A program made the translations under genes and the position numbers. From Kribbella antiqua (GTDB lineage: Bacteria; Actinomycetota; Actinomycetes; Propionibacteriales; Kribbellaceae), in NCBI RefSeq assembly GCF_004345665.1, contig NZ_SLWR01000019.1, positions 1 through 64,000 on the forward strand: DNA of 64,000 nucleotides, in the 5' to 3' direction. Shown here in pieces: positions 5,334 through 62,882 of the stretch; position 1 is the stretch's first letter; each line of letters begins with the position of its first letter. The notes under the pieces were generated by a model. The model did not search any database. It was not told the DNA's origin and saw only the letters and a list, made by a program, of their open reading frames with translations.

Positions 5334-5477
5334 ATGGGCTGGTTCATATTTCTCGTGCTCGTAGTGGGTGCGATCGCGGCGTACAAGTACCGGGTGCCGT
5401 TGCTGGCGAAGTTGCTCGGTCAGCCGGAGCACCGGATTCAGCGGGCCATCGAGCGGCGGAAGGGCAACAAGGGCTGA
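5334..5477 (+). CDS. Small membrane protein, 47 aa
   Basis: The ATG at 5334 has a strong SD (AGGGGAG) five bases upstream. The protein has one N-terminal transmembrane helix (WFIFLVLVVGAIAAYKY) and a basic cytoplasmic tail ending in ERRKGNKG. It resembles no family I can name. Its own terminator hairpin follows 14 bases after the stop, so it appears to be a monocistronic gene between the two tRNAs. The in-frame open region upstream (from 5217) overlaps the tRNA edge and is not coding. Confidence 0.7.
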   Translation: MGWFIFLVLVVGAIAAYKYRVPLLAKLLGQPEHRIQRAIERRKGNKG

Positions 5478-5491
5478 GCGGGGCATGAAAG

Positions 5492-5518
5492 AAGCCGGTT
5501 CCAGAGTGGAACCGGCTT
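5492..5518. terminator. Intrinsic terminator hairpin
   Basis: Perfect 12-bp stem AAGCCGGTTCCA / TGGAACCGGCTT with a 3-base loop, followed by the T-rich GTTGTATT. It ends the small membrane-protein transcript and may also act on the tRNA-Asn transcript from the other strand. Confidence 0.85.
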
Positions 5519-5527
5519 GTTGTATTG

Positions 5528-5600
5528 CTCCCGCGACTGGACTCGAACCAGTAACCTGCCGGTTAACAGCCGGCTGCTCTGCCAATTGAGCTACGCGGGA
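5528..5600 (-). tRNA. tRNA-Asn (GTT)
   Basis: A 73-nt cloverleaf on the minus strand. Acceptor TCCCGCG pairs with CGCGGGA. D-arm is GCTCAATTGGCAGAGC, anticodon stem-loop GCCGGCTGTTAACCGGC with anticodon GTT, and T-arm CTGGTTCGAGTCCAG, with G73 and no encoded CCA. All stems are intact, so it should be functional. Confidence 0.95.
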
Positions 5601-45712: not shown

Positions 45713-45943
45713 CCTGGTCCTCCAGGGGCTAGCAGGGATGCTCCGACCCTATGCCCCGGTTAAGCGGTTTTGACCCCTCGGCACGGGAGAGTTTTCCACA
45801 GGTTCAGCCCACGATTCGGTTACTATGCGTGATCAGTTGATGCGTTCTTTACCATGTTGTTCGCACGGATATTCGAAACAGTCCGCGGCGTGTGGCATGG
45901 TGTGCGCTGCCCGATCGCGCGGGTCGGGCATGAGAGAGGAGCT

Positions 45944-46117
45944 ATGGCGACGGTACCGAAGGTGTCACGCTTGCCCGGCGAGGGTGACACTGTGCGCGAG
46001 GCGGGTAACAGTATGGCTGCGGGGAGCGATGGTGTATCCGGATCCTGGTCCAAGGACTCCCGGAGGGCAGTTGCTTGCCGTATTGTCCCGGCTACTGTCC
46101 GCGTAACTGCTGTCTGA
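45944..46117 (+). CDS. Small ORF (57 aa) in front of the secretion operon
   Basis: The ATG at 45944 has a strong SD (GAGAGGAG) five bases upstream and is the first well-initiated frame before the operon; the next gene begins 13 bases after its stop. The product is polar and basic with no membrane segment or recognisable domain (VSRLPGEGDTVREAGNSMAAG). It may be a real small component, a leader peptide setting operon expression, or a chance frame. The 230 bases before it hold a possible -10 TACTAT at 45821-45826 and no other gene. Confidence 0.45.
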   Translation: MATVPKVSRLPGEGDTVREAGNSMAAGSDGVSGSWSKDSRRAVACRIVPATVRVTAV

Positions 46118-46130
46118 GGGGCGGGTAGCG

Positions 46131-47366
46131 ATGAGTTGGTGGCGAACTGTGCTGAATCTGCCGCCAAAAGGTGAGCACTGGTCGGATCAACGCCGTACCA
46201 AGAAGCCGGGCAAGGGACGCCCGCAGAGCACCGCGCCGGAGTGGTGGGCCCACCCCGATGGACCGGTGTCACCCACCCCTCGCCAGGCACAGGGTGTAGC
46301 AGCCCAATACTCGGCTCCGCACACTCCTCCGCCGGCCGGCGGAGTGATGGCTCCGCCTCGTCGTCCGTCCGGTCGTACGCCGGAACCGTCCGGCCAGGCG
46401 CACCGGTCACCTGAACGTCTGAAGCAGCGCCCGTCGCATGGTACGCGCGCGGCCCCCGGACAGGGTCGTGAGGTGCTCGAGCCTGGGCAGACGCCGTGGT
46501 CGACCGAGCCGGAGTCCTCGTTCTCCACCTGGGCCCGGCGGTTCTTCCGCGGCCTGGTGGTCGTCGTACTGCTGCTGGCCGCGATCAGCGGGGTCCGCTC
46601 GTGGATCTGGCCGAACAACACCCCGGCGAACGTCGTCACCGGGCAATCCAACTTCCCGTCCGACGAGGCCCGCGCGGTCGCGACGAGGTACGCCGTTTCG
46701 TATCTCAGCTGGGACGAGGACAACCCCACCGCCCGGGCGAAGGCGATCGGCCTCGACCTGGCGTCGGGGATGGACACCACCGCGGGCTGGAACGGCAAGG
46801 GCAGGCAGGCGGCCAGCCAGGCGTACCCGGGTGAGGTGAAGGTCGACTCCAGCGGCGTGGCCGCCGTGGTCGACGTACGCGTGTTGACCCGCTCCTACGT
46901 GAAGCGTGGTGCGGCGTGGGCCGCCTCGTCGGACTCGTGGGTGCGGCTGTCGGTCCCGGTGGCCCGGGCCGCGTCGCGCGTGGTGGTCAGCGGACCGCCG
47001 ATGTACGTGCCGGACAGCCCGGACGCGCTGCCGGACAACATGCCCGAGGCCGGCGCCCTGGACGCCGATCTGACCAAGGCGACCGAGGAGGACGCGAAGG
47101 CGTTCTTCACGGCGTACGCCGGTGACAACCCGTCCGCGGTGACCGCGCCGGGTTCCACGATTCGCGGCCTGGGGGGCCAGGTGAAGTTCGGCGAGCTGAA
47201 GGACTGGCAGGTCTTCACCGGCAACGACGACGAACGGCAGGCGACTGCCGTCGTCACCTGGGACGGGGCGGGGGACACCACCCTGGACCAGAACTACACG
47301 CTCACGTTGAGGCGGACGGTCGCCACCGACGGAGCACAGCGATGGCAAGTGGCTGCCGTCGGATGA
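46131..47366 (+). CDS. TcpC/VirB8-like conjugation-apparatus protein
   Basis: A 411-aa bitopic membrane protein. A Pro-rich cytosolic N-terminus (about 1-140), one transmembrane helix (RRFFRGLVVVVLLLAAISGV, about 140-160) and an extracytoplasmic part with two NTF2-like halves typical of TcpC (PF12642), for example ARAVATRYAVSYLSW and EEDAKAFFTAYAGDNPSAV. In Gram-positive conjugation systems this protein forms the assembly scaffold of the channel. It is the first recognisable gene of the apparatus operon, in the same order as tcp/Tn916 loci. SD GGGGCGGG lies before ATG 46131. Confidence 0.82.
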   Translation: MSWWRTVLNLPPKGEHWSDQRRTKKPGKGRPQSTAPEWWAHPDGPVSPTPRQAQGVAAQYSAPHTPPPAGGVMAPPRRPSGRTPEPSGQAHRSPERLKQRPSHGTRAAPGQGREVLEPGQTPWSTEPESSFSTWARRFFRGLVVVVLLLAAISGVRSWIWPNNTPANVVTGQSNFPSDEARAVATRYAVSYLSWDEDNPTARAKAIGLDLASGMDTTAGWNGKGRQAASQAYPGEVKVDSSGVAAVVDVRVLTRSYVKRGAAWAASSDSWVRLSVPVARAASRVVVSGPPMYVPDSPDALPDNMPEAGALDADLTKATEEDAKAFFTAYAGDNPSAVTAPGSTIRGLGGQVKFGELKDWQVFTGNDDERQATAVVTWDGAGDTTLDQNYTLTLRRTVATDGAQRWQVAAVG

Positions 47367-47415
47367 CACCAGCAACGAGCCGTCGGATGACCGAGGCAAC
47401 AAGGGAGACACCGCA

Positions 47416-47703
47416 ATGATGACGCACGAACTGGCTGCGAGCGTGGTTCAGCTCGCCGTGCCCATGGCCGACAGCAACGTTCCGACGGGCGCGGATTTCA
47501 AGGACTGGGTCCTGGTCATCGCGGGGAACATCTTCATCGCCATTCTCGTCCTGCGTGCCATCGGGCACTACTTCAAGCGCGAGTGGGGCGAGCTGTTCGG
47601 CCACATCGCGGCCGGGGTGCTGGTGGGCGGGCTGATCTACGCCAACAACCAGACCATCAATGTACTCAAGGGCTTCTGGGGATTGCTGTCCGGAGGTAAT
47701 TGA
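47416..47703 (+). CDS. Small T4SS membrane subunit (TcpD-like position)
   Basis: A 95-aa protein with two transmembrane helices (WVLVIAGNIFIAILVLRAI and LFGHIAAGVLVGGLIYA) separated by a basic loop. Its place between TcpC- and TcpE-like genes and its size fit TcpD-type or VirB2/VirB3-type subunits. Sequence alone does not decide. SD AAGGGAG precedes tandem ATGs; the stop shares a base with the next ATG. Confidence 0.72.
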   Translation: MMTHELAASVVQLAVPMADSNVPTGADFKDWVLVIAGNIFIAILVLRAIGHYFKREWGELFGHIAAGVLVGGLIYANNQTINVLKGFWGLLSGGN

Positions 47704-48287
47704 TGCGCGTCGGCCGTACCCTGACCCACCACTTCGAGATCGAGACCCGGCAGTACGACCTGCTCGGCATCGACCTCGGAGAAGGCGCCCGGCGCCGGAT
47801 GATCATCTTCGGTGCGGTGATCATCGTGCTCTGGGTCGCTCTGCTCATCCCGTTCCTCGGGGTGCCCAAGAAGCCCACCGTCAGCCTGTACATCGTCCCG
47901 CCGTTCGTGATCACCGCGTTCGGCTGGCGACCCGGTAAGTTCCACGAACGCCGCCGCCGCGTGACCGAATGGGCGCTCGCCGTCCGCTACGCGTTGCGCG
48001 CCCACCGCCCGATCATCGGACTCGGCGCGCGGGCCGCCGACAAGACGGAGTACTTGCCATGGCGTGAGCGCGTCGCGACCCAGAAGGTGGCCAACCTGGC
48101 CAAGGCCAGAGTGACACCGGAGTGGGATCGCGAGGTCGTGGTGGAGCTGGATCCGAGGGTCCGCGCCGGCGCGGACATCACCGTGAACCAGCGTGCCCGC
48201 CTGCTCGGGGCGGACCACGTACAGCGGGTCAGTCGCAGGACGTCGTCTTCTGGGCTCGGTCGATCGGAGAGGAAGGGGCACGGATGA
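47703..48287 (+). CDS. TcpE/PrgI-like T4SS membrane protein
   Basis: A 194-aa protein. A short soluble start (TLTHHFEIETRQYDLLGIDLG) precedes two adjacent transmembrane helices (IIFGAVIIVLWVALLIPFLG and VSLYIVPPFVITAFGW) and a basic C-terminal cytosolic domain (KFHERRRRVTEWALAVRYALRAHRPIIG). This layout matches TcpE/PrgI family proteins, which pair with the VirB4 ATPase. ATG 47703 has GGAGG six bases upstream. It overlaps the ATPase gene by ATGA. Confidence 0.75.
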   Translation: MRVGRTLTHHFEIETRQYDLLGIDLGEGARRRMIIFGAVIIVLWVALLIPFLGVPKKPTVSLYIVPPFVITAFGWRPGKFHERRRRVTEWALAVRYALRAHRPIIGLGARAADKTEYLPWRERVATQKVANLAKARVTPEWDREVVVELDPRVRAGADITVNQRARLLGADHVQRVSRRTSSSGLGRSERKGHG

Positions 48288-51200
48288 AGATCGCTGACAA
48301 GCTCCTGAACCTGGTGGGCGTCGGCCGCGAGCGCGGCCTGCCGCCCCCGCGTCTTGTTGCCATCGCCGATGGCCTGCTCGTCACCGAACGCAGCGCCGAG
48401 GCGTGGTTCCTGATCTCGGTGGCGAACACCGACCTGGCGACCGAGGCCGAGCAGGACGCCGCCCTGGACGCCGCGGTGAGCGCCGCCGCGACCATCCTCG
48501 GCGACCGGCTCAGCCACCTGAAGGTGGTCTGGGGCCGCTCGACCGGTCAGGACTACATCGACTCCGTGGCCGGCCACTACCGGCTCGGCGACCACGACGC
48601 CTGGGCCCAGACCCGGGCCGACCGGATCGACGAGATGCGGATGCCCGAGCGGTACGTCGCTCTCGGCGTACATCTGTCGGACCGCGACCCACGCGCCACG
48701 GCCCAGGTCCGCGGTTCCATCAGTGACGCCCTGGGTACGACGTCCTGGCGGGTGAGCGCTCGTGAGCTCGCCCACCTCGACGAGCGGGTCCGCAAGCTGG
48801 CCCGGCAGCTCGGGTCCACCGTCTGGCGGGCGCACACCGCGCCGGCCGAGGTGATCTCCTGGCTGATCAGCCGCGAGATGCACCGCGGTGCTGTCGCGGC
48901 TCCACGCCGAGGCCTGATCACCGGTGCGTCCCTGGCCCGGCTCACGTCCGGCCGGGTGGTTCCGTACACCGACCACCTGCGCATCTACGACACGCGTGGG
49001 CAGATCGCGGCGTACACGACTGTGCTCGCGATGACCGACTTCCCCGAAGAGCTCGAGACGCCGGGCGCGGGGGAGTGGCTGCGCACGCTGTCCGAGATCA
49101 AGGCGATCGACGACGACGGCGACGAGATCGACGTCACCGTCGAGGCGTCCGTCCGGTTCCGGGTGCTGACCAAGAAGACGGCCCGGCACCTGGTCGACGA
49201 GACCCGCAAGAGCGCCAAGGAACAACGAAGGTCCGCCGCCAAGGGCACCGCGGAGGAGACCGCCGACGAGATCGTCGAGACCGAACGCATCATGCGTGAG
49301 GTCAAGCGCGACATCAACCGGAGCGGTCTGACCCTGGTCGAGGACCACCCACGCCTGCTGGTCAGCGCGGACACCCGCGAGGACCTGGAGACGTACATCG
49401 ACGCCGTCATCGCGCACTACGCCGACCGCGGCATCACCGTCGCCGTCGGCGCCGACGAGCAGCGCGACCTCTGGCTGGAATCCTTGCCAGGCGACCAGTT
49501 GCGGGTTCCCGACCTCGGGCATGTGCGGGAGTCGACCGCTTTCTTCGGGTCCTGGTTCTGGGGCGGCGCGTCCATCGGTGACGCGACCGGTCCTGCGATC
49601 GGGTATCTGACCGGGTCCACGCCTGGTCTGGTGCGCTTCGACGCTGCAGCCGGTTCTGCTCTTGGCGACGCGACTACGACGTTGTTCTTGGGTCGGTCCG
49701 GTCGAGGCAAGACGACTGCCGCGATGCTCGGTGGTTTGGATAGTGCCTTTGCCGGTGCCTGGGTTCCTTTGCTTGACCTGAAGGGCGACGCTGCCGGCGT
49801 ATCCGCGGTTGCTGCGGAGTACGGCGTACCGACTGCTGTCATCGAGATCACGGCTCAGTTCTCTGGTGCTGCAGACCTCTTGCGTGTTCTGCCTGTCGAT
49901 GATGCTTTGCTGCAGGCGCCTTCGCAGCTGATGTTGCTGCTGCCTCCGCATCTGCGTGGTGCGGCTGAGGCTCCTGTCGTCGCCGCGACGCGAGCTGAGA
50001 TCCAGTCACCTGATCCCTCGTCGTGGGGTGTCATCCAGCGGCTGTGTGCGTCTGACTCGGAGACGGTGCGGACCGTTGGATTCGCGCTGCGGGACCTGGT
50101 CGAGACTGGTCTTGGTTCGGTCGTTGCAGGTCCTCCTTCAGGCTTGTCGTCGTTGACCACGAACCCGGGGTTGTGGGTCGTGCAGATGCCGGGCCTGACC
50201 TTGCCGTCGCCCGAGTCGGCGCCGGAGTCCTGGTCGCCGATCGAACGTGTCGGAATGGCCTGCCTGCGCGGCTGCCTCGCCTGGATGGTCCGTACGACGG
50301 GCCGCCGCGAGTTCCGCGGGCGCTCCAAGGTCGTCATCGTGCCTGAGGTCCATTTGCTGACGAAGACGCCCGACGGCGCGTCCTTCCTCGACTACATCGC
50401 CCGTGTCGGCCGTGCCCTCGGCGCCTCGCTGGTGCTGGACACGCAGGACCCGGCTTCGATCCTGAAGCTCCCGGGTCTGGTCGAGCAGATCACCACTCTG
50501 TTCGCCTTCAGCCTCCGCTCGCGCGAGCAGGTCGACTCGTTGCTCGAGCTGCTTGGGCGGCCGCAGACTCCGCCGTACCAGACCCTGGTCCGCGGCATCA
50601 ACACCGCCGCCAACGGCAAGAGCATCCGCCACGGCCACTGCATCATGCGCGACCGCTGGGACGAAGTAGCCACCGTCCAGATCGACATCCCCAGCGAGCG
50701 CGTCGCCGAACTCCTCCGCACCACCCCGGAATCCGAGCACGCCGCCACCGAACCCACCCAACCCATCCTCCCGGCGTACGAAGAAGACCCCTTCGCCGAC
50801 GACGACTACGAAGACCTCCCCACCCCCGCCGCCACCGCCACAGCCCAAGCCGAAGCCCACACCGCCGAACCGTCCCCCGTCGCCGCCCATGAGGCGGAGA
50901 CCTACGAGGCAAGGGCGGCCTACGAGCCTGGGGCGGCTCACGAGGCAAGGGCGGCCCACGAGCCTGGGGCGGCTTACGAGGGCGGCGCGGCCTACGAAGC
51001 AGGGGCGGCATACGAGGCGAGGTCGGCCTACGAGCCTGGGCCGCCTTCCGAGGCCCACCCGGCTCCCCAGGCACCACCGGCGCCGGCCCAGACACCTGCC
51101 CCGACCCAGGCAGCACACGCGCCCACTCAGACGCCACCGGCGCCCCCTCGGGCACCATCCGCATCCGAGCCAGTATCCCAGCACAACGGCTACGCGGACT

Positions 51201-51415
51201 ATGCCACCGGAGCCGAGCGAAGCGAAGGCGCCCACCGCGAAAACGGCCAGGACCACCACCACCCCCTCCGCTACGAATCCCCGATCGGCCCCGACGAGGT
51301 CTACGACCAAGAAGCCGACGAAGCCGCCTACAACGAAGCCATGTACAACGGCTACGAAGACCCCCAACCACCCCCAGCCCCCAACGGCTCCCCCAACAAG
51401 GAGCACGTCGCATGA
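48284..51415 (+). CDS. VirB4/TcpF-like T4SS ATPase with a repetitive acidic tail
   Basis: A 1043-aa ATPase that should power assembly or transport. The N-terminal half (about 1-440) is the membrane-associated VirB4/TraC-type region. The ATPase domain has Walker A GRSGRGKTT (residues 470-478), LLDLKGDAAG, the Walker B-like KVVIVPEVHLL where Glu stands without the usual preceding Asp, and DTQDPASILKLPGLVEQITTLFAFSLRS as in TraC-type sensors. After about residue 820 the protein becomes low-complexity: an acidic region, eight hexapeptide repeats (874-921), then a Pro/Ala/Gln-rich tail. VirB4 homologues normally lack such a tail. It overlaps its neighbours by ATGA on both sides. Confidence 0.85.
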   Translation: MKIADKLLNLVGVGRERGLPPPRLVAIADGLLVTERSAEAWFLISVANTDLATEAEQDAALDAAVSAAATILGDRLSHLKVVWGRSTGQDYIDSVAGHYRLGDHDAWAQTRADRIDEMRMPERYVALGVHLSDRDPRATAQVRGSISDALGTTSWRVSARELAHLDERVRKLARQLGSTVWRAHTAPAEVISWLISREMHRGAVAAPRRGLITGASLARLTSGRVVPYTDHLRIYDTRGQIAAYTTVLAMTDFPEELETPGAGEWLRTLSEIKAIDDDGDEIDVTVEASVRFRVLTKKTARHLVDETRKSAKEQRRSAAKGTAEETADEIVETERIMREVKRDINRSGLTLVEDHPRLLVSADTREDLETYIDAVIAHYADRGITVAVGADEQRDLWLESLPGDQLRVPDLGHVRESTAFFGSWFWGGASIGDATGPAIGYLTGSTPGLVRFDAAAGSALGDATTTLFLGRSGRGKTTAAMLGGLDSAFAGAWVPLLDLKGDAAGVSAVAAEYGVPTAVIEITAQFSGAADLLRVLPVDDALLQAPSQLMLLLPPHLRGAAEAPVVAATRAEIQSPDPSSWGVIQRLCASDSETVRTVGFALRDLVETGLGSVVAGPPSGLSSLTTNPGLWVVQMPGLTLPSPESAPESWSPIERVGMACLRGCLAWMVRTTGRREFRGRSKVVIVPEVHLLTKTPDGASFLDYIARVGRALGASLVLDTQDPASILKLPGLVEQITTLFAFSLRSREQVDSLLELLGRPQTPPYQTLVRGINTAANGKSIRHGHCIMRDRWDEVATVQIDIPSERVAELLRTTPESEHAATEPTQPILPAYEEDPFADDDYEDLPTPAATATAQAEAHTAEPSPVAAHEAETYEARAAYEPGAAHEARAAHEPGAAYEGGAAYEAGAAYEARSAYEPGPPSEAHPAPQAPPAPAQTPAPTQAAHAPTQTPPAPPRAPSASEPVSQHNGYADYATGAERSEGAHRENGQDHHHPLRYESPIGPDEVYDQEADEAAYNEAMYNGYEDPQPPPAPNGSPNKEHVA
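50903..51046 (+). repeat. Eight hexapeptide-coding repeats in the ATPase tail
   Basis: Eight consecutive 18-base units encode (Y/H)E(A/P/G)(R/G)(A/S)A with a degenerate last unit YEPGPP, residues 874-921. The bases vary little between units, so the array is young and likely variable in length between strains. Confidence 0.85.
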
Positions 51416-53412
51416 CCTGGTCCCGCCGTCTCCGCACGGCGACCACCGTCCTCTGCGTCTCCTTCATCCTCACCGCCCAACTAGCCCTCGCCGCCGACCC
51501 CAACCAAGGCCCAACCAACCCAACGGGCTTCGGCGACCTCCTCCCAACCCCAGACCTGACCCACGGCGACACCAGAACCCTCTTCGAGCAGTACAGCCCG
51601 ATGGTCTACGGTCTGGACTTCGAGAGAAGCATTCGCGATCCGATGGAAGCCGTGTTCAACGGCTACGCACATATCGTGATGATGTACATCGTCGCCATCA
51701 CGCGCGGTGCCATATCAGTGGGCTGGTGGCTCTTCTCGTTCACAGACGTTAAGCCGCTCACCGACGCGACCTCGGCATCTATCGGTGCAACTAGCACGCA
51801 GTTGGTTGGCTGGCTGCTGCCGTCAGCGCTGGCCTTTGGCGCGGTCGCGGCGTACACGCAACGCAAGACCACCGGCAGCGCATTGGGACAGCTCGCTTGG
51901 GTTTTCGTTGCCGGCGTCCTCAGCATCAGCTTCGCTGTTGCCCCGGCTACTTGGTTGCGTGGAGTCGACGGTGCCCGTCAGATGGGCGCGGGTGCAATCA
52001 TGACGGCGTCAGCCGACGCTATGGGGCCAACGATGCAGAGTCCCATTGCGTGGCCGGAGCCCGGCTTCACTGGGACCGCGAGGGATACCTTGCTGAGGAA
52101 GTCCGCCGATGCAAGTTGGCGAGGATTCGCCGTTACGCCGTGGTGCATTGCTGAGTTCGGGTCACTCCAAGCGTGCGGGCGGTACGGCAAGGGAATGCTC
52201 GACGCCGGGACGGACGCGGACGCGAGGCAAAAGTACATTGACTCCGTCGTTGCTCCGGCAGAGGGCGGCGGTGACGCCCCCACGGTCAAGTGGGCGAAGG
52301 GTGACAATGCATTCGGCCGCATCGCCGTGGTTATGTTGGCCGCCATCGCGGCAACATTGTTTGCGTTTCTCAACATCTCGCTGGCCTTCACCGCTTTGAT
52401 GGCCTTTGTGGGCTGCTTGTTGCTCCTTGTTGTTGGGGTGTTCTTTGCCTGTCTGTGGATCATCCCGGGGCGGACGAGGCAGTGGGGACTCAACTGGTTC
52501 GAGGCTTTGGTCGGTCTAGTGCTGCAGTCGTTCCTTGCGATGCTGGTATTTGGTACCGCCCTCACCCTCGTCACTGCCGTTTTCAGCCTGACCGGAGTTC
52601 TTGGTTGGCTTCCGGTGTCCGGACTCGCTATTGCCGTATTGATCGCCGGCTTCAGACTGCGCAGGCTGCTGGACAATCTGACCTCGATGATGCGACCTGG
52701 TTCCGGCAGCATTTTGCTAGGCGGCTTGGCTCGTCGAGGTGCTCTCGGGGTAGCCAGGCGAATGATCGGCGCACTCGGCAGCCGAAGCGCCGCGCCGGCA
52801 CTTACCGAACGCAAGAAGGGGAGCCTGGTTCCGGACTCCAGTCCGCAGCACGTCTCGTCGGTGCGGGTGTATCGGCAGGCGCCTGCAGTTGGGTCCTTGG
52901 GCAGGGCGTCTGCGGGATCCACGCCGTACGAGCTGACCACTGGCGCCGAGCGGCGGCGGGCTGAGGGAGCCGGATCGCCAACTGGAGCGGGGCCCGGTGG
53001 GCAGCATGCTGCTGGTGAGGGGGTTCGGGCGGCTGGTGTCGGTGGGCCTCGTAGTACCTCTGCGGTCAACCTCGCACGTGCTCGCGCCCAGTCGAAGGCT
53101 GAGGGACGCCGGACGATCTCTGTCACAGCCGCCAATGTCGCGCCTGGCGGAGGCTCGGGAGGTTCGCGAAGTGCCTCGGTGGAGAGGCAGAAGGCCCGGC
53201 ATTCCCGGCGCCCGGCGCCGGCACCGTCGTCGGTGAACGAGGTGCGGTACGAGCCGAGGGTGGTGCATACGCATTCGGCCAGCCTTCGCGAGGGTCCGCC
53301 GAAGGGTCAGCGCGCGCGGCGCAAGTCGCCTGCGCCGCAGGCGCGACGGTTCCGCGAGTACTCCGCGTTCACGAAGGACGGCGTGACCGTACACGTGCCG
53401 ACGCGCAGGTGA
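51412..53412 (+). CDS. VirB6/TrbL-like polytopic T4SS channel protein (TcpH position)
   Basis: A 666-aa protein. A cleavable signal peptide (TVLCVSFILTAQLALAA), an extracytoplasmic segment and about seven to eight transmembrane helices (for example IVMMYIVAITRGAISVGWWLF, IAVVMLAAIAATLFAFLNISLAF, ALMAFVGCLLLLVVGVFFACLWII, LAIAVLIAGFRLRRLL) precede a long basic, Gly/Ser/Arg-rich cytosolic tail (about 450-666). This matches VirB6-like inner-membrane channel subunits such as TcpH. Gene order supports the call. GC is lower between about 51600 and 52700 than around it. ATGA overlap with the ATPase. Confidence 0.8.
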   Translation: MTWSRRLRTATTVLCVSFILTAQLALAADPNQGPTNPTGFGDLLPTPDLTHGDTRTLFEQYSPMVYGLDFERSIRDPMEAVFNGYAHIVMMYIVAITRGAISVGWWLFSFTDVKPLTDATSASIGATSTQLVGWLLPSALAFGAVAAYTQRKTTGSALGQLAWVFVAGVLSISFAVAPATWLRGVDGARQMGAGAIMTASADAMGPTMQSPIAWPEPGFTGTARDTLLRKSADASWRGFAVTPWCIAEFGSLQACGRYGKGMLDAGTDADARQKYIDSVVAPAEGGGDAPTVKWAKGDNAFGRIAVVMLAAIAATLFAFLNISLAFTALMAFVGCLLLLVVGVFFACLWIIPGRTRQWGLNWFEALVGLVLQSFLAMLVFGTALTLVTAVFSLTGVLGWLPVSGLAIAVLIAGFRLRRLLDNLTSMMRPGSGSILLGGLARRGALGVARRMIGALGSRSAAPALTERKKGSLVPDSSPQHVSSVRVYRQAPAVGSLGRASAGSTPYELTTGAERRRAEGAGSPTGAGPGGQHAAGEGVRAAGVGGPRSTSAVNLARARAQSKAEGRRTISVTAANVAPGGGSGGSRSASVERQKARHSRRPAPAPSSVNEVRYEPRVVHTHSASLREGPPKGQRARRKSPAPQARRFREYSAFTKDGVTVHVPTRR

Positions 53413-53418
53413 TAGCGG

Positions 53419-54354
53419 ATGGCACGAAGGCACCGAGCGACTGAGAACCGCCGGGAGGGCGCCCGCGCAGCGCGTCATCGCGGTCCCGACAGCGAGCGGG
53501 TCGACTCCGCATACGACGGCACCGATGGACGACCGCGTCCCGGTGCTCCGGACGGCTGGCGTTCGCTGATGAGCGCGGATTACGACTATCCGGAGGAAAT
53601 CGACAACCTCAGCGGTCGCGAGCGGCGTCGGGCAAAGAAGAGCTGGCGGCGCGATGACCATGCGCAGCGCATGGCCTGGTTGCGTAGCCAGCGGCAGGCC
53701 GAGCCGACCAGCCCGGCGGTCATCGTTGCCCTGGTCGTCGTGCTGGCGATCATCATCCTTGGTTTGGGCGGCGGTCTGCCACGGTTGCTCGGTGGTAAGA
53801 ACTCGGACGACGGTGCCCCGATCGGCCTTCTCACTCCCGGCCGATCGGTCGTGCTGCCGACCGCGCCCTCGAACAGTCAGCCGGCAGGTGAGACGACGCC
53901 CGTCGCCACTCCTACCTTGACGCCTCCTCCGCCCGTGACCGAGAGGCCGTCTGCCGAGTCGACCGCGCTGGCAACTGACGTTGTCGGTGCCTGGGCACGC
54001 GCTTTCTACACTCGTGACCCAGCCGCCGAGACCTATGCGACGCTCGTGGCGAAGTGTGCGAAGTACATGACGCCGGAAGTCGCATCGAGCTTCAGTTCAG
54101 CGGGCGATCCGACGTACGACGCACTCAAGAAGGATGGCGGCAAGTCCACGGTCATCGCGGCGCCGGTCAGTACTCCACCCGTCAATGCCGACGCCCCGGT
54201 CGACACCCCGGAGCGGATCACGAGGTTCGTCAAGGTGACGATCGACGTGACCGGCAAGCACGCCCAGCGATTCGACGTACCCCTGCTCGTCACGCTGGTG
54301 AATCAGGACAACCAATGGGTCATCAGTGAGGTGTCCGGCGGTACCGGACCATGA
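53419..54354 (+). CDS. Bitopic membrane protein with VirB8/NTF2-like extracytoplasmic domain
   Basis: A 311-aa protein. A basic cytosolic N-terminus (about 1-95), one transmembrane helix (PAVIVALVVVLAIIILGLGGGL), a Thr/Pro-rich linker and a C-terminal domain (about 175-311) whose helix AWARAFYTRDPAAETYATLVAKCAKYMTPEV and strands VDTPERITRFVKVTIDVTG suggest an NTF2-like fold, as in VirB8. It may be a second scaffold subunit of the apparatus. It sits seven bases after the channel gene and 22 before the hydrolase gene. Confidence 0.72.
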   Translation: MARRHRATENRREGARAARHRGPDSERVDSAYDGTDGRPRPGAPDGWRSLMSADYDYPEEIDNLSGRERRRAKKSWRRDDHAQRMAWLRSQRQAEPTSPAVIVALVVVLAIIILGLGGGLPRLLGGKNSDDGAPIGLLTPGRSVVLPTAPSNSQPAGETTPVATPTLTPPPPVTERPSAESTALATDVVGAWARAFYTRDPAAETYATLVAKCAKYMTPEVASSFSSAGDPTYDALKKDGGKSTVIAAPVSTPPVNADAPVDTPERITRFVKVTIDVTGKHAQRFDVPLLVTLVNQDNQWVISEVSGGTGP

Positions 54355-54375
54355 CCAGTTCAGTGGGGGATCGCG

Positions 54376-55533
54376 ATGTTCGACGAGCGTGATCTCGGTC
54401 GGGGCGTCCTGTCGGTCGCGAGCCGGGGCGTGTTCTTCAAGGCCGCGGCCGCCTTGGCAGTGGTCGGCGTCGCCAGTTTGCTGATGCTGGCTCCTTTTGG
54501 AGGTACCAGCCAGCCTCAAGCGGCCTGCCTTCCGCTGGGGCCAGGTCAAGCCGACAACCCCAATCCCTCGGGAGCGCTGCGGGCCACCCAGCTCTACTTC
54601 GCCAAGCTGATCGACCAGGTCGCCATCGAACGGGGCCTGCCTGGTCGAGCGACGCTCATCGCACTGATGACCGCGCTGGTGGAGTCCGATCTGCAGAACC
54701 TGACCTACGGCGACGCCGACTCGGTCGGGCTCTTCCAACAGCGGCCCACGGCGGGATGGGCCGAAACAGCTGACCAGATCACGAAGGAGCCCGACGGGCC
54801 GGTGTACGCGACCAAGGCCTTCTTCGGCGGAGCCGATGGGCCGAGCCCGCCCGGTCTGGTCGACATCGACGGTTGGCCGTCCATGGCGCTCGGTGACGCC
54901 GCGCAGGCCGTTCAGGTGTCCGCATTCCCCGAGCGCTACGCACTGCGTGAACAAGAGGCGAGGCGGATCGCCGCTGAGGCCGGTATCGACCTGAACCGAC
55001 CCGGCAACCCGTACGCCGGTCGCGCGAACCCGCCGTCGACCGGAACCGTCACCGAAGGCGTCGACCAGGACGACGACTGCGGCGGCCAGGGACTGATCTC
55101 CGGCCAACCGGTGAACGGTGTATGGCCCGAGCAGCAGCAAACCGTCACGGACCCGACCGGAACGGGCGGCCTGGTCACCCCACGTACGGCGGCCTGGGTC
55201 GCCGAGGCCCGCAAGAACCTGGGAACCCTGAGTATGACCTGCTGGGACGCCCACCTCTGGAACCCGACCAGCGACCACCCCCGGGGCAAGGCCTGCGACG
55301 TAATGGTCGGCACCGATGCCCGCCGATCATCCGCAGCCCGCGCCCGGGGCGACCAGATCGCCAATTGGGCCATCAAGACAGCAGGCCAGACCGGCGTACA
55401 TTACGTCATCTGGTACGGCAAAATCTGGTCCGCCCGCCGAGGCACCTGGATCCCCTACAACGGCGGCGGCGTCTACAACCCCACCGACGCCACCGGCGGC
55501 CACTACGACCACGTCCACGTGTCCCTGTACTGA
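54376..55533 (+). CDS. Two-domain peptidoglycan hydrolase (TcpG-like), lytic transglycosylase plus M15-like peptidase
   Basis: A 385-aa protein anchored by one N-terminal helix (AAAALAVVGVASLLMLAPF). The first domain (about 60-200) is lysozyme/SLT-like with the catalytic Glu in ALMTALVESDLQNL and SVGLFQQRPTAGWAE. The second (about 270-385) has the zinc-peptidase pattern SDHPRGKACDVMV and HYDHVHVSLY of LAS/M15-type enzymes. It would open the cell wall for the secretion channel. This is the counterpart of TcpG/Orf14 hydrolases in Gram-positive conjugation systems, although those usually pair SLT with NlpC/P60. Confidence 0.85.
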   Translation: MFDERDLGRGVLSVASRGVFFKAAAALAVVGVASLLMLAPFGGTSQPQAACLPLGPGQADNPNPSGALRATQLYFAKLIDQVAIERGLPGRATLIALMTALVESDLQNLTYGDADSVGLFQQRPTAGWAETADQITKEPDGPVYATKAFFGGADGPSPPGLVDIDGWPSMALGDAAQAVQVSAFPERYALREQEARRIAAEAGIDLNRPGNPYAGRANPPSTGTVTEGVDQDDDCGGQGLISGQPVNGVWPEQQQTVTDPTGTGGLVTPRTAAWVAEARKNLGTLSMTCWDAHLWNPTSDHPRGKACDVMVGTDARRSSAARARGDQIANWAIKTAGQTGVHYVIWYGKIWSARRGTWIPYNGGGVYNPTDATGGHYDHVHVSLY

Positions 55534-55593
55534 TGATCGATGTCTCCGTAGTGTGCCGCGTGTGGCTGAGGTAACGCAGGAAGTGAGTGCTCA

Positions 55594-56652
55594 ATGACCA
55601 GCCCAGGTAATCCGAACGACCAAAACGGTGCCTGGACAAACGGACCATGGCATCCAACCGATCCACCAAATCCCGATCCCCATCGAAAGATGCCGCCGTC
55701 TCCACAGTGGGGCCAGTTGCCACCGGGCGCGTCCGGCATATCGGATGGACGGGGCGGTCCCAGGACGACCGGCGGTCGTGTGGAGGTCTCGGCAGCCACA
55801 ACTCTCCTCACTGCGATCCCGTGGTTCTTCTGGAGCTTCGTCACCGTCTCCTGGATAGCCGGAATCATCGGCTTCGGTTACGGGTGGATCCTCGTACTGG
55901 TCTGGATTTTGTCCGGAGCAGTTGTCTTCATCCATCCGGTCGAGGATTGGATTGCTCGTTACCTGTTCCGTCTCCGGAAGCCGACTCTGGTCGAAGATCA
56001 ACGCATAGCTTCGGTCTGGCCGCAGTTGTCGAGCCGTGCTGGGGTGGAGGCCGGCAAATATTCCGTGTGGATTCAGGAGTCGGAAGATGCCAACGCGACG
56101 CCGACCCCCGGTCACGTCGTCGCCGTGACGACATGGTCGTTGTACAACCTGCCGGCGGCGCATTTGGAGGGCGTGCTGGCACACGACCTCAGTCATCACC
56201 TGGGCGGACGTACGTGGCTCAGTCTGCTGAGCTTCTGGTACTCGATTCCTGCTCGGTGCGCGCTCATCGGCGTACGTGCACTTGTGCGCTTGATGAAGGC
56301 TGTCCCTGCGGTCGGATGTCTGGTCGTTGGCTTCCTGACGCTCGGATATCTGGGGATACTGCTCGCGGTACTGACATTCGACGACAGTCTGACGTTGCCG
56401 CTCCTGTTCCTCACCCCGTTTGTCGCGCCGCCGATTCTCGCGTGGCTCGGTCGTCGAGAGGTCATGCAGGCCGATCGTCGGGCCGCGGCAATGGGCTATG
56501 GACCCACCATCGTGCAGGTTCTCTACGGGTGGCAGGTCCAGCATCAGAACATGCTCGGCCGAGAGGCCAACCGACGCTCCCAGTTGATGTCGAGCACTCC
56601 GTCTCTCGGCGACCGGGTCCGCGCGCTCGAGGGACTAGCGCCGCTGGCATAG
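55594..56652 (+). CDS. M48-like membrane protein with an altered zinc site
   Basis: A 352-aa membrane protein. A Pro/Asn/Gly-rich N-terminus of 65 residues precedes two helices (TTLLTAIPWFFWSFVTVSWIAG, WILVLVWILSGAVVFI), an M48-style cytosolic domain and two further helices. The motif that should read HExxH is H197-D-L-S-H201, and the usual ExxAD third-ligand segment reads EVMQADRRAA, one residue out of register. It may be a pseudo-peptidase or a variant protease serving the secretion complex. It follows the hydrolase gene by 60 bases on the same strand and is the probable last gene of the locus. Confidence 0.72.
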   Translation: MTSPGNPNDQNGAWTNGPWHPTDPPNPDPHRKMPPSPQWGQLPPGASGISDGRGGPRTTGGRVEVSAATTLLTAIPWFFWSFVTVSWIAGIIGFGYGWILVLVWILSGAVVFIHPVEDWIARYLFRLRKPTLVEDQRIASVWPQLSSRAGVEAGKYSVWIQESEDANATPTPGHVVAVTTWSLYNLPAAHLEGVLAHDLSHHLGGRTWLSLLSFWYSIPARCALIGVRALVRLMKAVPAVGCLVVGFLTLGYLGILLAVLTFDDSLTLPLLFLTPFVAPPILAWLGRREVMQADRRAAAMGYGPTIVQVLYGWQVQHQNMLGREANRRSQLMSSTPSLGDRVRALEGLAPLA

Positions 56653-59418: not shown

Positions 59419-59932
59419 CGACCCGACGCCAACCTCTGCATCGCCAACCCCCACCCCAACCGCTCCATCCACTCCTGCCTGGACCCCAGAGGAACAGGCT
59501 TCCGTTACCGCTGCGACAGCGCAGTACAAGATCGCTCGTGCCGCCATCGACGCGGCGCTGCACAGCCCGTCCACGGCAACTCGCGCCAAGCTTGCGCAGG
59601 CTGGAAACGGCGGTGCCTGGATCATTGACGTCCTGGGTGATGTGAAGTTCAACCAGGACCATGGGTGGTACCAGGAGGGCAGGGTGGTCATAGAGTCCGT
59701 GTCCGTTGCCTCGGTGAAGCTGCAGGCGCCACAACCCGAGGTTCGTCTGAACGTGTGTCTCGATACGTCCAAGACCTCCATCCGCTACCAGGCGAATCGG
59801 AAGCCCGTGCCCGTGGGCCCGGACAACGGAGATCGACACAAGGCTCAAGCCGCTCTGGTCTACGCGCCGCCGGCTGGTCAGACCAAGAAGATGTGGTTCC
59901 TCGTCGCGGAGGAAGGTTCAGGCACATGTTGA
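59327..59932 (+). CDS. Lipoprotein of duplicated module, copy 1
   Basis: A 201-aa lipoprotein (lipobox LTAC, Cys22) of unknown function. A Pro/Thr/Ser linker (about 30-52) follows, then a helix AWTPEEQASVTAATAQYKIARAAIDAALH and a beta-rich domain (VVIESVSVASVKL, RLNVCLDTSKTSIRYQA, MWFLVAEEGSGTC) that looks like an NTF2- or SnoaL-type fold. Its last residue is Cys. Its signal-peptide half is almost identical to that of the second copy at 61288, while the mature domain is only moderately similar. Its 3' end overlaps the next gene. Confidence 0.78.
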   Translation: MIRRPLTLTVATLCGALALTACNGSPEAGRPDPTPTSASPTPTPTAPSTPAWTPEEQASVTAATAQYKIARAAIDAALHSPSTATRAKLAQAGNGGAWIIDVLGDVKFNQDHGWYQEGRVVIESVSVASVKLQAPQPEVRLNVCLDTSKTSIRYQANRKPVPVGPDNGDRHKAQAALVYAPPAGQTKKMWFLVAEEGSGTC

Positions 59933-60921
59933 TGGCTGGCGCACGTGCCCTGGCGACGATTCTGATCACAATGGCTGCAGCGTTTGCGCAGGTTGGATCG
60001 GCGGCAGCGGATGACAAGGTGCCGCCGAAGCCCGAGGGAGACTACGTCCTGGTCTGCTACAGCAACCACAAATGTCTATGGGTTCTCCGCTCAGTCGTCG
60101 AGAACGGCCAGCCATCAACGACGTCTCCCGGCAAGAAGCCCGTCAAGAAGGTCACGCCGGCATGTCAGTTCGGTGGTGCTGCGCAGGCGTGTACCTCGGC
60201 ATTGGGTAACTGGTCGAACAGCCAGCAGTGCTATCTGCAGAGCCTGAGTCCACAACCTCCTTACAGCGACCCCCGGTGGCAGGGTCACACGGATGGGGCT
60301 GTCTGGGCTTGTGTGCGGGAGCAGGGGTATGACGAGGGGGAGCATTTGGTGACGAGGTGGGTGTGGTTGCCTGGGGCGCCTGACACCGTCGTCGTCGATC
60401 CAGTGACGTTGGCTTATCAGGCGATTGCGGCGATGGAGTTGGCGCCGCCGATGGTTCGGACAGCGCCGGGGGTTGGGCAGGTTGGGCTCGTCAATATGCC
60501 TGTGTGGTTGTGGGTTGAGAAGACGGAGAACACTTGGGGGCCGATTACTCGGAGTGCGAGTGTGCCGGGGTTGGGTGTGACGGCTACTGGGCGGGTGGTG
60601 GCTGTTGATTGGGCTATGGGGGATGGGAGGACGGTGCGGTGTGCGGGGGCTGGGACGCCGTACGAGAAGTCCATGGGGGTGAAGGATTCGCCTGATTGTG
60701 GGCATCGGTACAAGGAGACGTCTCGCGAGTTGCCGAAGTGCGCGTACCCGGTGACGGCTACTGCTCAGTGGGACATCACGTGGCAGAGCACCCTCGGCGA
60801 AACTGGGCAGATCTCGATGACGCAGCAGGCCACGATCCAGCTGAGGATCGCCGAGGCGATTCCGGTACTGGTCGATCCCAACGCCCCCGAGGCTGCCGCT
60901 CCAGCCAAAGCCAGCTGCTGA
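59926..60921 (+). CDS. Large Cys-rich secreted protein of duplicated module, copy 1
   Basis: A 331-aa protein with a signal peptide (ALATILITMAAAFAQVGSAAA), a variable N-terminal part with CYSNHKC, then conserved blocks: ACQFGGAAQACTSALGNWSN, DPRWQGHTDGAVWACVREQGYD, VWLPGAPDTVVVDPVTLAYQAI and a beta-sandwich-like C-terminal half (MPVWLWVEKTENTWGPITRS, DWAMGDGRTVRCAGAGTPYE). Around a dozen Cys suggest disulfides. It ends in Cys. The family is unnamed to me; similar secreted proteins occur in actinobacteria. It is translationally coupled to the lipoprotein. Confidence 0.75.
   Translation: MLMAGARALATILITMAAAFAQVGSAAADDKVPPKPEGDYVLVCYSNHKCLWVLRSVVENGQPSTTSPGKKPVKKVTPACQFGGAAQACTSALGNWSNSQQCYLQSLSPQPPYSDPRWQGHTDGAVWACVREQGYDEGEHLVTRWVWLPGAPDTVVVDPVTLAYQAIAAMELAPPMVRTAPGVGQVGLVNMPVWLWVEKTENTWGPITRSASVPGLGVTATGRVVAVDWAMGDGRTVRCAGAGTPYEKSMGVKDSPDCGHRYKETSRELPKCAYPVTATAQWDITWQSTLGETGQISMTQQATIQLRIAEAIPVLVDPNAPEAAAPAKASC
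60466..60773. repeat. Module repeat block 2 (partner 62427-62734)
   Basis: A 308-base stretch inside the secreted-protein gene differs from 62427-62734 at only three positions, while the sequences just upstream are clearly diverged. Its codons are rich in G- and T-ending triplets (GTG TGG TTG TGG GTT) unlike the C-ending codons nearby. This points to recent gene conversion. Confidence 0.85.
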
Positions 60922-61221
60922 CATTCCTGTTCGCAGCCGAGCAATCCGCGGCTGCGCGAGAGCGGGCAGCTGCGTTCGCGTGGCCATTAGTGGCCGGATG
61001 AACTCCACCCGAGACACTCCGCGATGGTGCAGCGCGGTGCGACTGTCTGTGGCGTGCTTCGGCGCGTTGCAACCGGCCGTAACCAGGAGCGGATCTTCCT
61101 GGGCCATCGACGCGATGTTGAGTACGTGGCTGTTGTCGGGCCGGGCAAGTGCCAGGGGCGCTCCGTCGATGACCGCCGTCAGTTCCAGGCGCTGCAGGTT
61201 CCTGCAGGCTGTGGAAAACGG
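60922..61221. other. Spacer between the duplicated modules
   Basis: About 300 bases with no well-supported gene. A frame from 61024 reads RRVATGRNQERIFLGHRRDV and VGPGKCQGRSVDDRRQFQALQVP, which has protein-like composition but lacks an SD and runs into the next module's leader. It may be a remnant of a lost gene. The block before the second module contains GCAGGTTCCTGCAGGC at 61193-61208. Confidence 0.45.
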
Positions 61222-61379
61222 CCGTCGGTGAACACCCTCCGTATGACACCCTTACACCGACCGCACTCACGATCGGAGCCGTACCGCATGATCCGCCGAC
61301 CGCTCACCCTGACCGTTGCCACGCTCTGCGCCGCCCTAGCGCTAACCGCCTGCAACGGCTCCCCAGAAGCCGGCCGGCC
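61222..61379. repeat. Module repeat block 1, second copy
   Basis: Second copy of 59261-59418, covering leader and signal-peptide coding sequence of module 2, with three differences. Conservation of the leader implies the two modules share regulation. Confidence 0.85.
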
Positions 61380-61902
61380 AAATTCCACCGTTACCGCCTC
61401 CAGTCGAACTCCGACTCCCACGCTCAGCACCCCCGCCGCTACTCCCACCTGGACACCCGAGGAACAGGCAGCGATCACGGCCGCCAAGGCGCAATACGCG
61501 GCGGCGCGTACCGCCGCTGGCGTCGCGCTCCACGATCCGCGTACCGCAAGTCGCGACCAGTTGGAAGCGGCCGGGAATGGCGGCGCCTGGCTGACATCAA
61601 TCGTCGAGCGCATCGTCTTCCTGCGTGACCGGGGGCTTTATCAGAGCGGAAACGCCAAGATCGTCTCCGCGTCCACAACCTCTGTGGACCTCGCGGCGGA
61701 GCAGCCCTTGGTGGTTCTCAAGAGTTGCATCGACGGCGCCGGAGTGATGATGCGCTATCGCGCGACTGGTAAACCGGTGCCAGTCGTCACCACCAAAGAC
61801 GGTGCTCGGCACACGATGAGCGTTCGCCTCGTCTATGCGACTGCGAAGACCGGATCCAAGAGGTGGTTCCTGGTCGAGGAGAAGGCGACCGGAACATGCT
61901 GA
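61288..61902 (+). CDS. Lipoprotein of duplicated module, copy 2
   Basis: A 204-aa paralogue of the lipoprotein at 59327 with an almost identical signal peptide and LTAC lipobox (Cys22). The mature part aligns throughout (TWTPEEQAAITAAKAQYAAARTAAGVALH, GAGVMMRYRATGKPVPV, RWFLVEEKATGTC) but with many substitutions, so duplication is old and the 5' part was homogenised later. It also ends in Cys and overlaps the following gene by seven bases. Confidence 0.78.
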   Translation: MIRRPLTLTVATLCAALALTACNGSPEAGRPNSTVTASSRTPTPTLSTPAATPTWTPEEQAAITAAKAQYAAARTAAGVALHDPRTASRDQLEAAGNGGAWLTSIVERIVFLRDRGLYQSGNAKIVSASTTSVDLAAEQPLVVLKSCIDGAGVMMRYRATGKPVPVVTTKDGARHTMSVRLVYATAKTGSKRWFLVEEKATGTC

Positions 61903-62882
61903 GGCCGGTCCGGCGCCACCTTCTGACCTTGATCCTCGCCTTCTCTGCCGCTGGCCTTTTCCCTGCCCTGTCGTTGGCGCTGCCGACACCACCACCTGGC
62001 TACGAATGGGTCTGGGACCCGATCTCGAGCACCTACACCTTGGCGCTCAGTGCTGGTATCCCGGTCGAGGAAGATCCTGCGTCAGAAGGCCAGGATCCGA
62101 AATCCAAGAAGAAGCGCACATGCCAGTTCAAAGGTGCGGCACAGGCCTGTACGGACGCAGCTCTGGGTAACTGGTCCAACAGCCATCAGTGTTACATGAG
62201 GCGCGAGGAGCCCCAGCCGCCTTTCAGCGATCCACGGTGGGAAGGCCACACCGATGGGAGTATCTGGGCATGTGTCCGTCAGCAGGGATACGACGAGGGC
62301 GAGCATCTGGTGACCCAATGGGTCTGGTTGCCTGGGGAACCGGACACCGTGGTGATCGACCCCGTGACCCTGGCCTACCGAGCTTTAGCGCAGATGCAGT
62401 TGGCACCGCCGGTGGTGAAGAGCGCTCCGGGGGTTGGGCAGGTTGGGCTTGTCAATATGCCTGTGTGGTTGTGGGTTGAGAAGACGGAGAACACTTGGGG
62501 GCCGATTACTCGGAGTGCGAGTGTGCCGGGGTTGGGTGTGACGGCTACTGGGCGGGTGGTGGCTGTTGATTGGGCTATGGGGGATGGGAGGACGGTGCGG
62601 TGTGCGGGGGCCGGTACGCCGTACGAGAAGTCCATGGGGGTGAAGGATTCGCCTGATTGTGGGCATCGGTACAAGGAGACGTCTCGCGAGTTGCCGAAGT
62701 GCGCGTACCCGGTGACGGCTACTGCTCAGTGGGAGATCACGTGGCAGAGCACCCTTGGTGAAACCGGGCAGATCTCGATGACTCAGGAGGGTGCCACGCA
62801 GTTGCGGATTAGGGAGGCTGTGCCTGTGCTTGTGGATCCCGATGGGGGTGAGGTGGCCGCGCCGGCTAAAGGTGGATGTTGA
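61896..62882 (+). CDS. Large Cys-rich secreted protein of duplicated module, copy 2
   Basis: A 328-aa paralogue of 59926-60921. The signal peptide differs (HLLTLILAFSAAGLFPALSLA) and the first 75 mature residues are unrelated (PPPGYEWVWDPISSTYTLAL, then a Lys-rich KSKKKR stretch). From CQFKGAAQACTDAALGNWSN onward it matches closely. Residues about 178-280 are encoded by the near-identical block. It ends in Cys. The 3' end overlaps the converging hydrolase gene by 17 bases. The swapped N-termini may give the two copies different partners. Confidence 0.75.
   Translation: MLRPVRRHLLTLILAFSAAGLFPALSLALPTPPPGYEWVWDPISSTYTLALSAGIPVEEDPASEGQDPKSKKKRTCQFKGAAQACTDAALGNWSNSHQCYMRREEPQPPFSDPRWEGHTDGSIWACVRQQGYDEGEHLVTQWVWLPGEPDTVVIDPVTLAYRALAQMQLAPPVVKSAPGVGQVGLVNMPVWLWVEKTENTWGPITRSASVPGLGVTATGRVVAVDWAMGDGRTVRCAGAGTPYEKSMGVKDSPDCGHRYKETSRELPKCAYPVTATAQWEITWQSTLGETGQISMTQEGATQLRIREAVPVLVDPDGGEVAAPAKGGC
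62427..62734. repeat. Module repeat block 2, second copy
   Basis: Partner of 60466-60773 with three differences, coding the shared central domain of the second secreted protein. Confidence 0.85.

Follow-up and report, generated by a model that had tools for sequence, protein, structure and literature searches.

The DNA analysed here (the window, 64,000 nucleotides) is C19:1-64000 of the 8.10 Mb, 28-contig genome of Kribbella antiqua, and the subject is an operon that encodes parts resembling a Tcp-type type IV secretion system (T4SS). Positions 46131-56652 are filled by eight plus-strand genes forming a single operon (Table 1). The first seven match an actinobacterial plasmid transfer module in order: TcpC (C1), TcpD-like (D), TcpE-like (E), VirB4, VirB6, a second VirB8 (C2) and a wall hydrolase (G); the eighth, after the hydrolase, encodes an M48-like membrane protein. 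An initial annotation, made from the letters alone, had described a plus-strand Tcp-like T4SS operon, which was borne out by the eight genes, their order and their homology to plasmid modules. It had overstated the junctions as mostly ATGA overlaps: genes overlap at only three of the seven (D/E, TGATG; E/VirB4 and VirB4/VirB6, ATGA), and the remaining four are gapped by 6 to 60 nt.

Table 1. Features of the operon and its leader, in window positions
Feature	Position	Strand	Basis
Leader	45713-46130	+	between divergent aldo-keto reductase gene and C1; 38 Kribbella intergenic rows and 37 leader stretches aligned
Small open reading frame (ORF) in leader, 57 codons	45944-46117	+	ATG behind GAGAGGAG; stop 13 nt before C1
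C1, TcpC/VirB8-1-like membrane protein	46131-47366	+	AlphaFold2 (AF2) fold match; 29-40% to plasmid C1
D, TcpD-like small membrane protein	47416-47703	+	NF040686 E=0.011, under cut-off; 35-51% to plasmid D
E, TcpE/VirB3-like membrane protein	47703-48287	+	PF12648 E=0.041, under cut-off; 38-44% to plasmid E
VirB4-like ATPase	48284-51415	+	PF12846 (AAA_10) 1.6e-22
VirB6/TrbL-like membrane protein, first gene of the exchangeable cassette	51412-53412	+	TrbL 5.5e-4 and CD3337 2.9e-9, both under cut-off
C2, second VirB8-like protein	53419 or 53569 (ATG) to 54354	+	AF2 fold match
G, membrane-anchored two-domain wall hydrolase (VirB1/TcpG position)	54376-55533	+	PHROG and PDB sequence matches
M48-like integral membrane protein, motif HDLSH	55594-56652	+	PF01435 2.6e-9

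With sequence models, VirB4 and M48 were recognised clearly, and VirB6, TcpD and TcpE only under the cut-offs. The VirB4 protein is a VirB4-type ATPase by its PF12846 score (80.5 bits, cut-off 27.5), and scored 41.3 bits with the TcpF model, far under the cut-off of 1100. Its Walker A motif GRSGRGKT and the motif VIVPEVH were each found in 37 of 37 Kribbella loci. In the Walker B region, P-E replaces D-E in all five VirB4s aligned (from the window and plasmids) and is therefore a family trait. D and E fit TcpD and TcpE by size and by their position before virB4, and plasmid homologues align with both, although neither reaches its curated cut-off. The VirB6-like protein (TrbL 20.2 bits, cut-off 25.9) has five transmembrane segments by hydropathy, matches plasmid B6 at 30-42% and varies mostly at residues 421-600. 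In G, PHROG endolysin and tape-measure matches lie inside residues 66-220 and a PDB sequence match (9flh) at 265-384; plasmid hydrolases match at 29-55% across an N-terminal part.

No Pfam or NCBIfam match was obtained for C1, and PF12642, the Pfam TcpC family, had no match in the window's genome. The AF2 model of C1 (mean pLDDT 63.7, low in the N-terminal third) had TcpC 3ub1 as its top PDB match (2.3e-12), followed by OrfG of ICESt3, and by this predicted fold C1 would be the TcpC-like two-domain VirB8 protein of a Tcp/MPF-FA T4SS. For C2, modelled from the start at 53569 (pLDDT 76.1), the top match was the VirB8 domain of PrgL (E 1.8e-4; TM 0.32 by query, 0.57 by target), with TcpC, IcmL and CagV among the other top matches. 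The proposal of two VirB8-like proteins was thus supported by structure prediction, one of the checks suggested for it. At three loci (L096, L105 and L113), the frame of the VirB4 tail extends through virB6 (1609-1693 aa); a VirB4-VirB6 fusion was rejected, as the long frame occurs in just 3 of the 35 rows whose VirB4 frame is complete and virB6 retains its own ATG.

Fixation of the locus in the genus

All 38 Kribbella genomes searched gave a match to a VirB4 profile, in each case uninterrupted by stop codons; one genome (G001) gave only a 238-position piece on a short contig and was left out of the synteny comparison, and one genome carried two copies. Two loci, L086 and L087, belong to the same genome; trees and rates were computed without L086, which is counted among the 38 leader rows. 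When the search was extended to the order, with three candidates scored per genome, 38 of 245 genomes were positive, all of them Kribbella, with none among the 207 others; in a phylum sample, with two candidates scored per genome, 1 of 396 genomes had a match at E<=1e-100, the window's own. Among named genomes, VirB4 relatives were found at 24 loci, 21 of them in Kribbella (20 at 82-98% identity, and one tail-only match). The remaining three belong to 'Streptomyces sp. SID13031' (97%) and to two streptomycetes (46% and 49%); at the streptomycete loci L021 and L022 the operon is present and the surroundings differ from those in Kribbella.

The Kribbella loci of the named genomes share the neighbourhood of the window. 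On the left flank, the aldo-keto reductase and thioredoxin genes were found in 37 of 37 fetched VirB4 loci (their order was displayed for eight). On the right, an AlkZ-like gene was present in 17 of the 18 complete named-genome Kribbella loci, once as a fragment, and was not found in L008. The synteny comparison therefore favours the fixed chromosomal apparatus that had been proposed: since the locus occurs in every Kribbella genome searched and in none of the 207 other genomes searched in the order, next to constant upstream genes, it is not a mobile element. An integrative conjugative element or plasmid is expected to show a linked relaxase and integrase and a scattered distribution, and the locus fails the tests made for a conjugative element. 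The favoured reading is a putative domesticated, contact-dependent channel.

Constraint on VirB4 and exchange of the downstream genes

Pairwise ratios of nonsynonymous to synonymous differences per site (pN/pS) were summarised as medians over 37 loci for VirB4, D, E, C1 and the flanking genes, over 33 for VirB6, C2 and the hydrolase, and over 29 for M48, where rows of >85% coverage were used. VirB4 was the most constrained of the ten genes measured: residues 1-825 are nearly invariant across the genus (pN/pS 0.043; median identity 98.0%, minimum 93.9%), and the tail of about 200 aa is variable. The values were 0.115 for D, 0.147 for E and 0.312 for C1; the flanking genes had 0.160 (reductase) and 0.177 (thioredoxin). 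Those of the downstream genes (VirB6, 0.390; C2, 0.479; hydrolase, 0.357; M48, 0.614) are rough, because their pS of 0.67-0.70, compared with 0.37-0.40 in VirB4 and the reductase, approaches saturation.

VirB6, C2, the hydrolase and M48 form linked allelic types: type I with 14 loci including the window, types II and III with 8 each, and three single loci. The types were drawn by average-linkage thresholds chosen per gene and were assigned to 33 of 37 rows, L097, L114 and L116 being cut by contig ends and L098 rearranged. Within types, pN/pS was 0.21-0.37, and the cassette genes are therefore under purifying selection. Across 30 loci, at least 11 changes between types I-III are needed whether the tree is built from the left flank, from VirB4 or from five concatenated constant genes, but trees of VirB6 and of the hydrolase need just two, the fewest that three types allow.

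DNA identity, compared per 300 nt between sister loci with different cassettes, falls off within the tail of VirB4 in five of five pairs. Up to that point it is mostly >=0.9 along the left flank and VirB4, although L081/L113 show 0.8-0.97 and L108/L104 have some lower stretches upstream; beyond it and through M48 it is about 0.4-0.75. It recovers at AlkZ in L095/L087 and L108/L104, the right end of the other three pairs lying outside the aligned stretch. Given this drop and recovery between sisters, replacement has affected a block of about 5 to 7 kb at one constant position, in some cases piecemeal; the conserved flanks would most naturally allow this by homologous recombination.

The HExxH motif of M48 is intact in all seven type II rows and in 12 of 14 type I rows; the other two carry HDLSH (the window) and HELSY (L109). 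Of the single rows, L095 has the motif and L115 lacks it. Such degraded motifs, together with one genome with a broken VirB6 and an operon that lacks relaxase, integrase and, in 30 of 38 genomes, the coupling gene, could be taken to mark the decaying remnant of an old integrated conjugative element. This is very improbable and is already contradicted, as the 38 VirB4 matches free of internal stops, the low pN/pS of VirB4 and the purifying selection on the cassette genes all speak against it; the constraint on VirB4 rules out a decaying relic as the principal explanation.

Coupling protein, plasmid relatives and neighbouring features

No relaxase, coupling protein or integrase was found among the eight operon genes by Pfam and NCBIfam, family scans that did not extend to the other window genes between 6 and 38 kb. 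The window's locus thus has no TcpA or VirD4 coupling protein in the unit; its genome also gave no match to a profile of the Kribbella-type coupling protein. In 8 of 38 Kribbella genomes, the window's not among them, a VirD4-type coupling gene directly follows M48 (550 aa, TraG-D_C 7.7e-07). These eight loci are the eight type II loci, and presence of the gene changes at least 6 times on the constant-gene trees. In three of the four coupling-gene loci among the 18 complete named-genome loci, an ORF of 93-95 aa stands after the coupling gene.

Plasmids of Nocardiopsis and Saccharothrix carry the same coupling protein (50% and 47%, respectively) behind an overlapping M48 gene; at E 1e-4, neither VirB4 nor C1 nor VirB6 had a match on them, all but about 5 kb of each plasmid being covered. 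A different T4SS-like cluster is present on the Nocardiopsis plasmid and includes a single match to the wall hydrolase, in its C-terminal part, and the Saccharothrix plasmid has an annotated relaxase alongside the M48-coupling pair. Most simply, two modules would have come together in Kribbella and the coupling gene would have been lost in most lineages; a gain by type II alone is possible. Inward use of the machine, for DNA uptake or the like as in Helicobacter ComB, is improbable: ComB is a T4SS without VirD4, as set out in the available part of PMC12857230, and 30 of the 38 Kribbella genomes have no coupling gene, yet the coupling protein of the other eight fits export.

As for the putative domesticated channel itself, tblastn with VirB4 residues 1-849 returned 68 plasmid records, all below 60% identity, of which 42 cover >=80% of the query and 66 are typed non-mobilizable. 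Four plasmids were examined (Paenarthrobacter NZ_CP101191, Streptomyces NZ_CP109008, Brachybacterium NZ_CP107021 and Kocuria NZ_CP035505). In all four the order is C1-D-E-VirB4-x-VirB6-C2-hydrolase, with a VirD4-type gene in the fetched stretch and VirB4s 42-50% identical to that of the window; BLAST linked C1, D, E, VirB4, VirB6 and the hydrolase to the window proteins in four of four plasmids, and C2 in two. C1 of the Brachybacterium plasmid passes the Pfam TcpC cut-off (30.8 against 27 bits), and its C2 gives a VirB8 match slightly under the cut-off (21.4 against 23.2). The gene order is thus common to plasmids and Kribbella, apart from the small gene x between VirB4 and VirB6, which is absent in the window, whose VirB4 has an extra tail of about 200 residues that the plasmid VirB4s lack. 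The nearby VirD4-type gene also differs from the Kribbella coupling protein: at E 1e-3, neither this protein nor M48 of Kribbella found a match in the fetched parts of the four plasmids or at the two streptomycete loci.

Directly before the VirD4-type gene, plasmids typed non-mobilizable carry hypothetical genes of 228-238 aa that look alike by eye (L046 7890-8576, L048 815-1531 and L049 28102-28797). Those of L046 and L048, the two tested, had no Pfam match, and the genes are candidates for an undescribed relaxase or DNA-processing protein.

Outside the operon, the window's genome holds five other TraG-D_C genes, on C7, C16 (two), C5 and C12; the three on C7 and C16 lie inside other T4SS-like clusters (L041, L042 and L043), where SCO6880-family proteins were seen in L042 and L043 and L041 adjoins a dnaB-like gene by eye. 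TrwC relaxase domains were found only on C23, a 42 kb contig, and on C12, and PF03432 was absent genome-wide, these two being the relaxase families searched. The initial annotation's absence of relaxase and coupling protein therefore holds for the locus and, for PF03432, for the whole genome, but not for the genome at large, which has TraG-D_C and TrwC on other contigs, nor, as regards the coupling protein, for the family, with its eight genes at the operon end. FtsK-family genes also lie on contigs other than that of the operon. One, on C5, was rejected as a coupling partner; it sits with integrase, excisionase-like and Rep-like genes, by eye, in an element (L035, G000:C5:428000-446000) that we take to be of the actinomycete integrative and conjugative element type.

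These genes bear on a helper role, in which mobile elements that supply a relaxase and coupling protein themselves and lack VirB4 would use the Kribbella channel in trans. The C12 region has a TrwC domain, a Prim-Pol and a VirD4-type gene with no AAA_10 among the 10 neighbouring proteins tested, C23 has TrwC, and the Saccharothrix plasmid combines the M48-coupling pair and a relaxase with no such VirB4 in the parts read. However, this role would leave unexplained that VirB4 is kept at a pN/pS of 0.043 in 38 of 38 genomes, and BLAST in the neighbourhoods of those five coupling genes yielded nothing convincing for the operon proteins (best E 7e-4 for M48 and 0.001 for VirB6, to one L044 protein); we consider it unlikely. 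Service to an unlinked plasmid, which the initial annotation had also considered, is conceivable.

The leader, about 420 nt, is conserved genus-wide from about 45780 on, and its last 60 nt or so before C1 are nearly invariant. Its small ORF was not mentioned in the initial annotation. Upstream, no stop interrupts its frame as far as an ATG at 45854; an ATG-start frame of 50-70 aa occurs in 38 of 38 leader rows (37 genomes), at 57-61 codons with in-frame length changes, and its stop lies 13 nt (14 in one) before C1. As synonymous sites are as conserved as the others (pS 0.140, pN 0.130), constraint acts at the nucleotide level and is weak evidence for a protein, and tblastn of the peptide against plasmids gave nothing. 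A known riboswitch was rejected (no Rfam match up to E=5), as was a structured RNA, with changes on both sides in just 2 of 52 predicted pairs. The motifs TTTTCCACAGG and TTGTCCACAG, at 45792-45802 of the window and in the leaders of L080, L084, L088 and L090, are putative DnaA-box-like motifs. It is a guess that a leader peptide or protein-binding region controls the operon.

At 59665-62882, secreted-protein genes sec1 and sec2 are tandemly duplicated around a lipoprotein-like gene, with DNA identity of 86.8% across a 675 nt block and 94.8% across a 192 nt block. Their proposed role as clients found no support: in the loci compared, homologues stand near the operon in one other Kribbella genome only (L006, the same as L093), and many loci end soon after the operon, other parts of the genomes not having been searched. 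No integrase lies in the operon, in agreement with the initial annotation; 41 kb away, a phage-type integrase with a GntR domain (3387-5036) sits beside tRNA-Met and tRNA-Asn genes (5140-5600), likely the end of an integrated element.

A putative domesticated channel

The comparison with known systems drew on the full tcp gene order of pCW3 as general background. The Kribbella operon shares with the Tcp locus of pCW3 and with the MPF-FA systems of Tn916, ICEBs1 and ICESt3 the TcpC-fold protein and VirB4, with putative counterparts of VirB6 and the wall hydrolase and, before VirB4, of the small membrane proteins TcpD and TcpE, a placing given in the available part of PMC12857230; the initial annotation had noticed the likeness to tcp/Tn916 modules from the gene order. 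It differs in having no recognised TcpA, relaxase, oriT-binding gene or integrase, in adding a second VirB8 and M48, and in being chromosomal and fixed in the genus. A MOBless T4SS is a VirB4-based apparatus without a linked relaxase. No linked relaxase of the PF03432 or TrwC family was found here, and the Kribbella system looks like a relaxase-less T4SS made of Tcp-type parts. MOBless T4SSs were proposed to be common and domesticated for protein transport (Guglielmini et al. 2011, PMC3158045); in the portion of that paper available, the verified named examples are Gram-negative, whereas Kribbella is a Gram-positive genus with fixation and cassette exchange. The VirD4-less systems Ptl, Brucella VirB, ComB and Bartonella Trw, covered with the roles of T4SS parts in the available sections of PMC12857230, are VirB4-type with no coupling protein, as in most Kribbella, but Kribbella is monoderm, has Tcp-type parts and has the coupling protein in 8 of 38 relatives. 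Open-licence papers gave no relaxase-less T4SS described as fixed across a Gram-positive genus and no paper on a Kribbella T4SS, the one match, in its available part, being a Streptomyces plasmid that also reaches Kribbella as a recipient; the accessible main text of an actinobacterial survey of integrative conjugative elements (PMC3218068) does not mention Kribbella.

In our reading, which we hold to be fairly probable, the Kribbella ancestor would have acquired a Tcp-type (Gram-positive, MPF-FA-like) channel from a plasmid-like element of actinobacteria; combined with the M48-coupling-protein pair and fixed at one chromosomal site, this channel would have been kept under selection as a host system. 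In a T4SS, VirD4 brings substrates, VirB4 powers assembly or transport, VirB6 and VirB8 belong to the membrane complex and a VirB1-like hydrolase opens the wall. In Kribbella, C1-D-E-VirB4 would form the constant membrane motor and VirB6-VirB8-hydrolase-M48 the trans-envelope, partner-facing half; upon contact, the machine may open the wall and carry its substrate, protein or possibly DNA, from cell to cell or out of the cell. In 8 of 38 genomes this substrate would be delivered by a VirD4-type receptor; elsewhere it would come through a different receptor or following Sec export. With a motor that has hardly changed and an opposite half repeatedly exchanged among species, recruitment for another cell-to-cell task is suggested, and the turnover of cassettes, which would set specificity towards partners, is proposed to reflect partner-dependent selection on the envelope side.

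The variable outer half could also belong to an envelope or adhesion device, a surface structure with variable parts and no translocated substrate, like the VirD4-less Trw of Bartonella, whose variable subunits are proposed to be adhesive (PMC12857230, available part). Pfam scans of the eight proteins showed no pilin or adhesin family (LPxTG signals were not searched), and VirB6 and the wall hydrolase point to a channel, which leaves such a device with little probability.

Several observations weigh against a domesticated channel with exchanged cassettes. Only three candidates (order search) or two (phylum search) were scored per genome. In L098 (G008:C1, a single-contig genome), a chromosomal rearrangement, real or an assembly fault, cuts virB6 after its first third and leaves virB4 intact. 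By the thresholds for VirB6 and the hydrolase, type II falls into two clusters, which are united through C2 and M48, and single genes disagree with the type in a few rows (e.g. L092, L104 and the hydrolase of L105, L106 and L112). On the five-gene tree, the 11 changes compare with 13.58 +/- 1.31 in shuffled data, 28 of 500 shuffles reaching <=11, so the types are somewhat less scattered than random; type I sisters L084/L085 diverge in part of VirB6 (about 0.72) and M48 (about 0.61). The M48 motif is absent in six of six type III rows and altered in the window, so this part may be decaying, and M48 may be a structural part in some lineages. Behind M48, no conserved toxin or immunity gene was seen by eye in the 18 complete Kribbella loci, no effector search being made, and toxin-immunity cargo was dropped as a candidate.

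VirB6-like proteins are exclusion targets in some elements, reportedly including ICEBs1. A possible but clearly less probable extension of the domesticated channel is a genus-wide recognition system, with the frozen motor carrying exchangeable cassettes that define cell compatibility types, like capsule or exclusion types, and with the M48-coupling pair as an add-on receptor, present together with the cassette in some lineages and missing in others. The 38 genomes hold natural replacements of one half of a machine on a constant motor, in which the role of a relaxase-less T4SS and its specificity parts are open to test, and M48 and the coupling protein are set apart as a two-gene unit.

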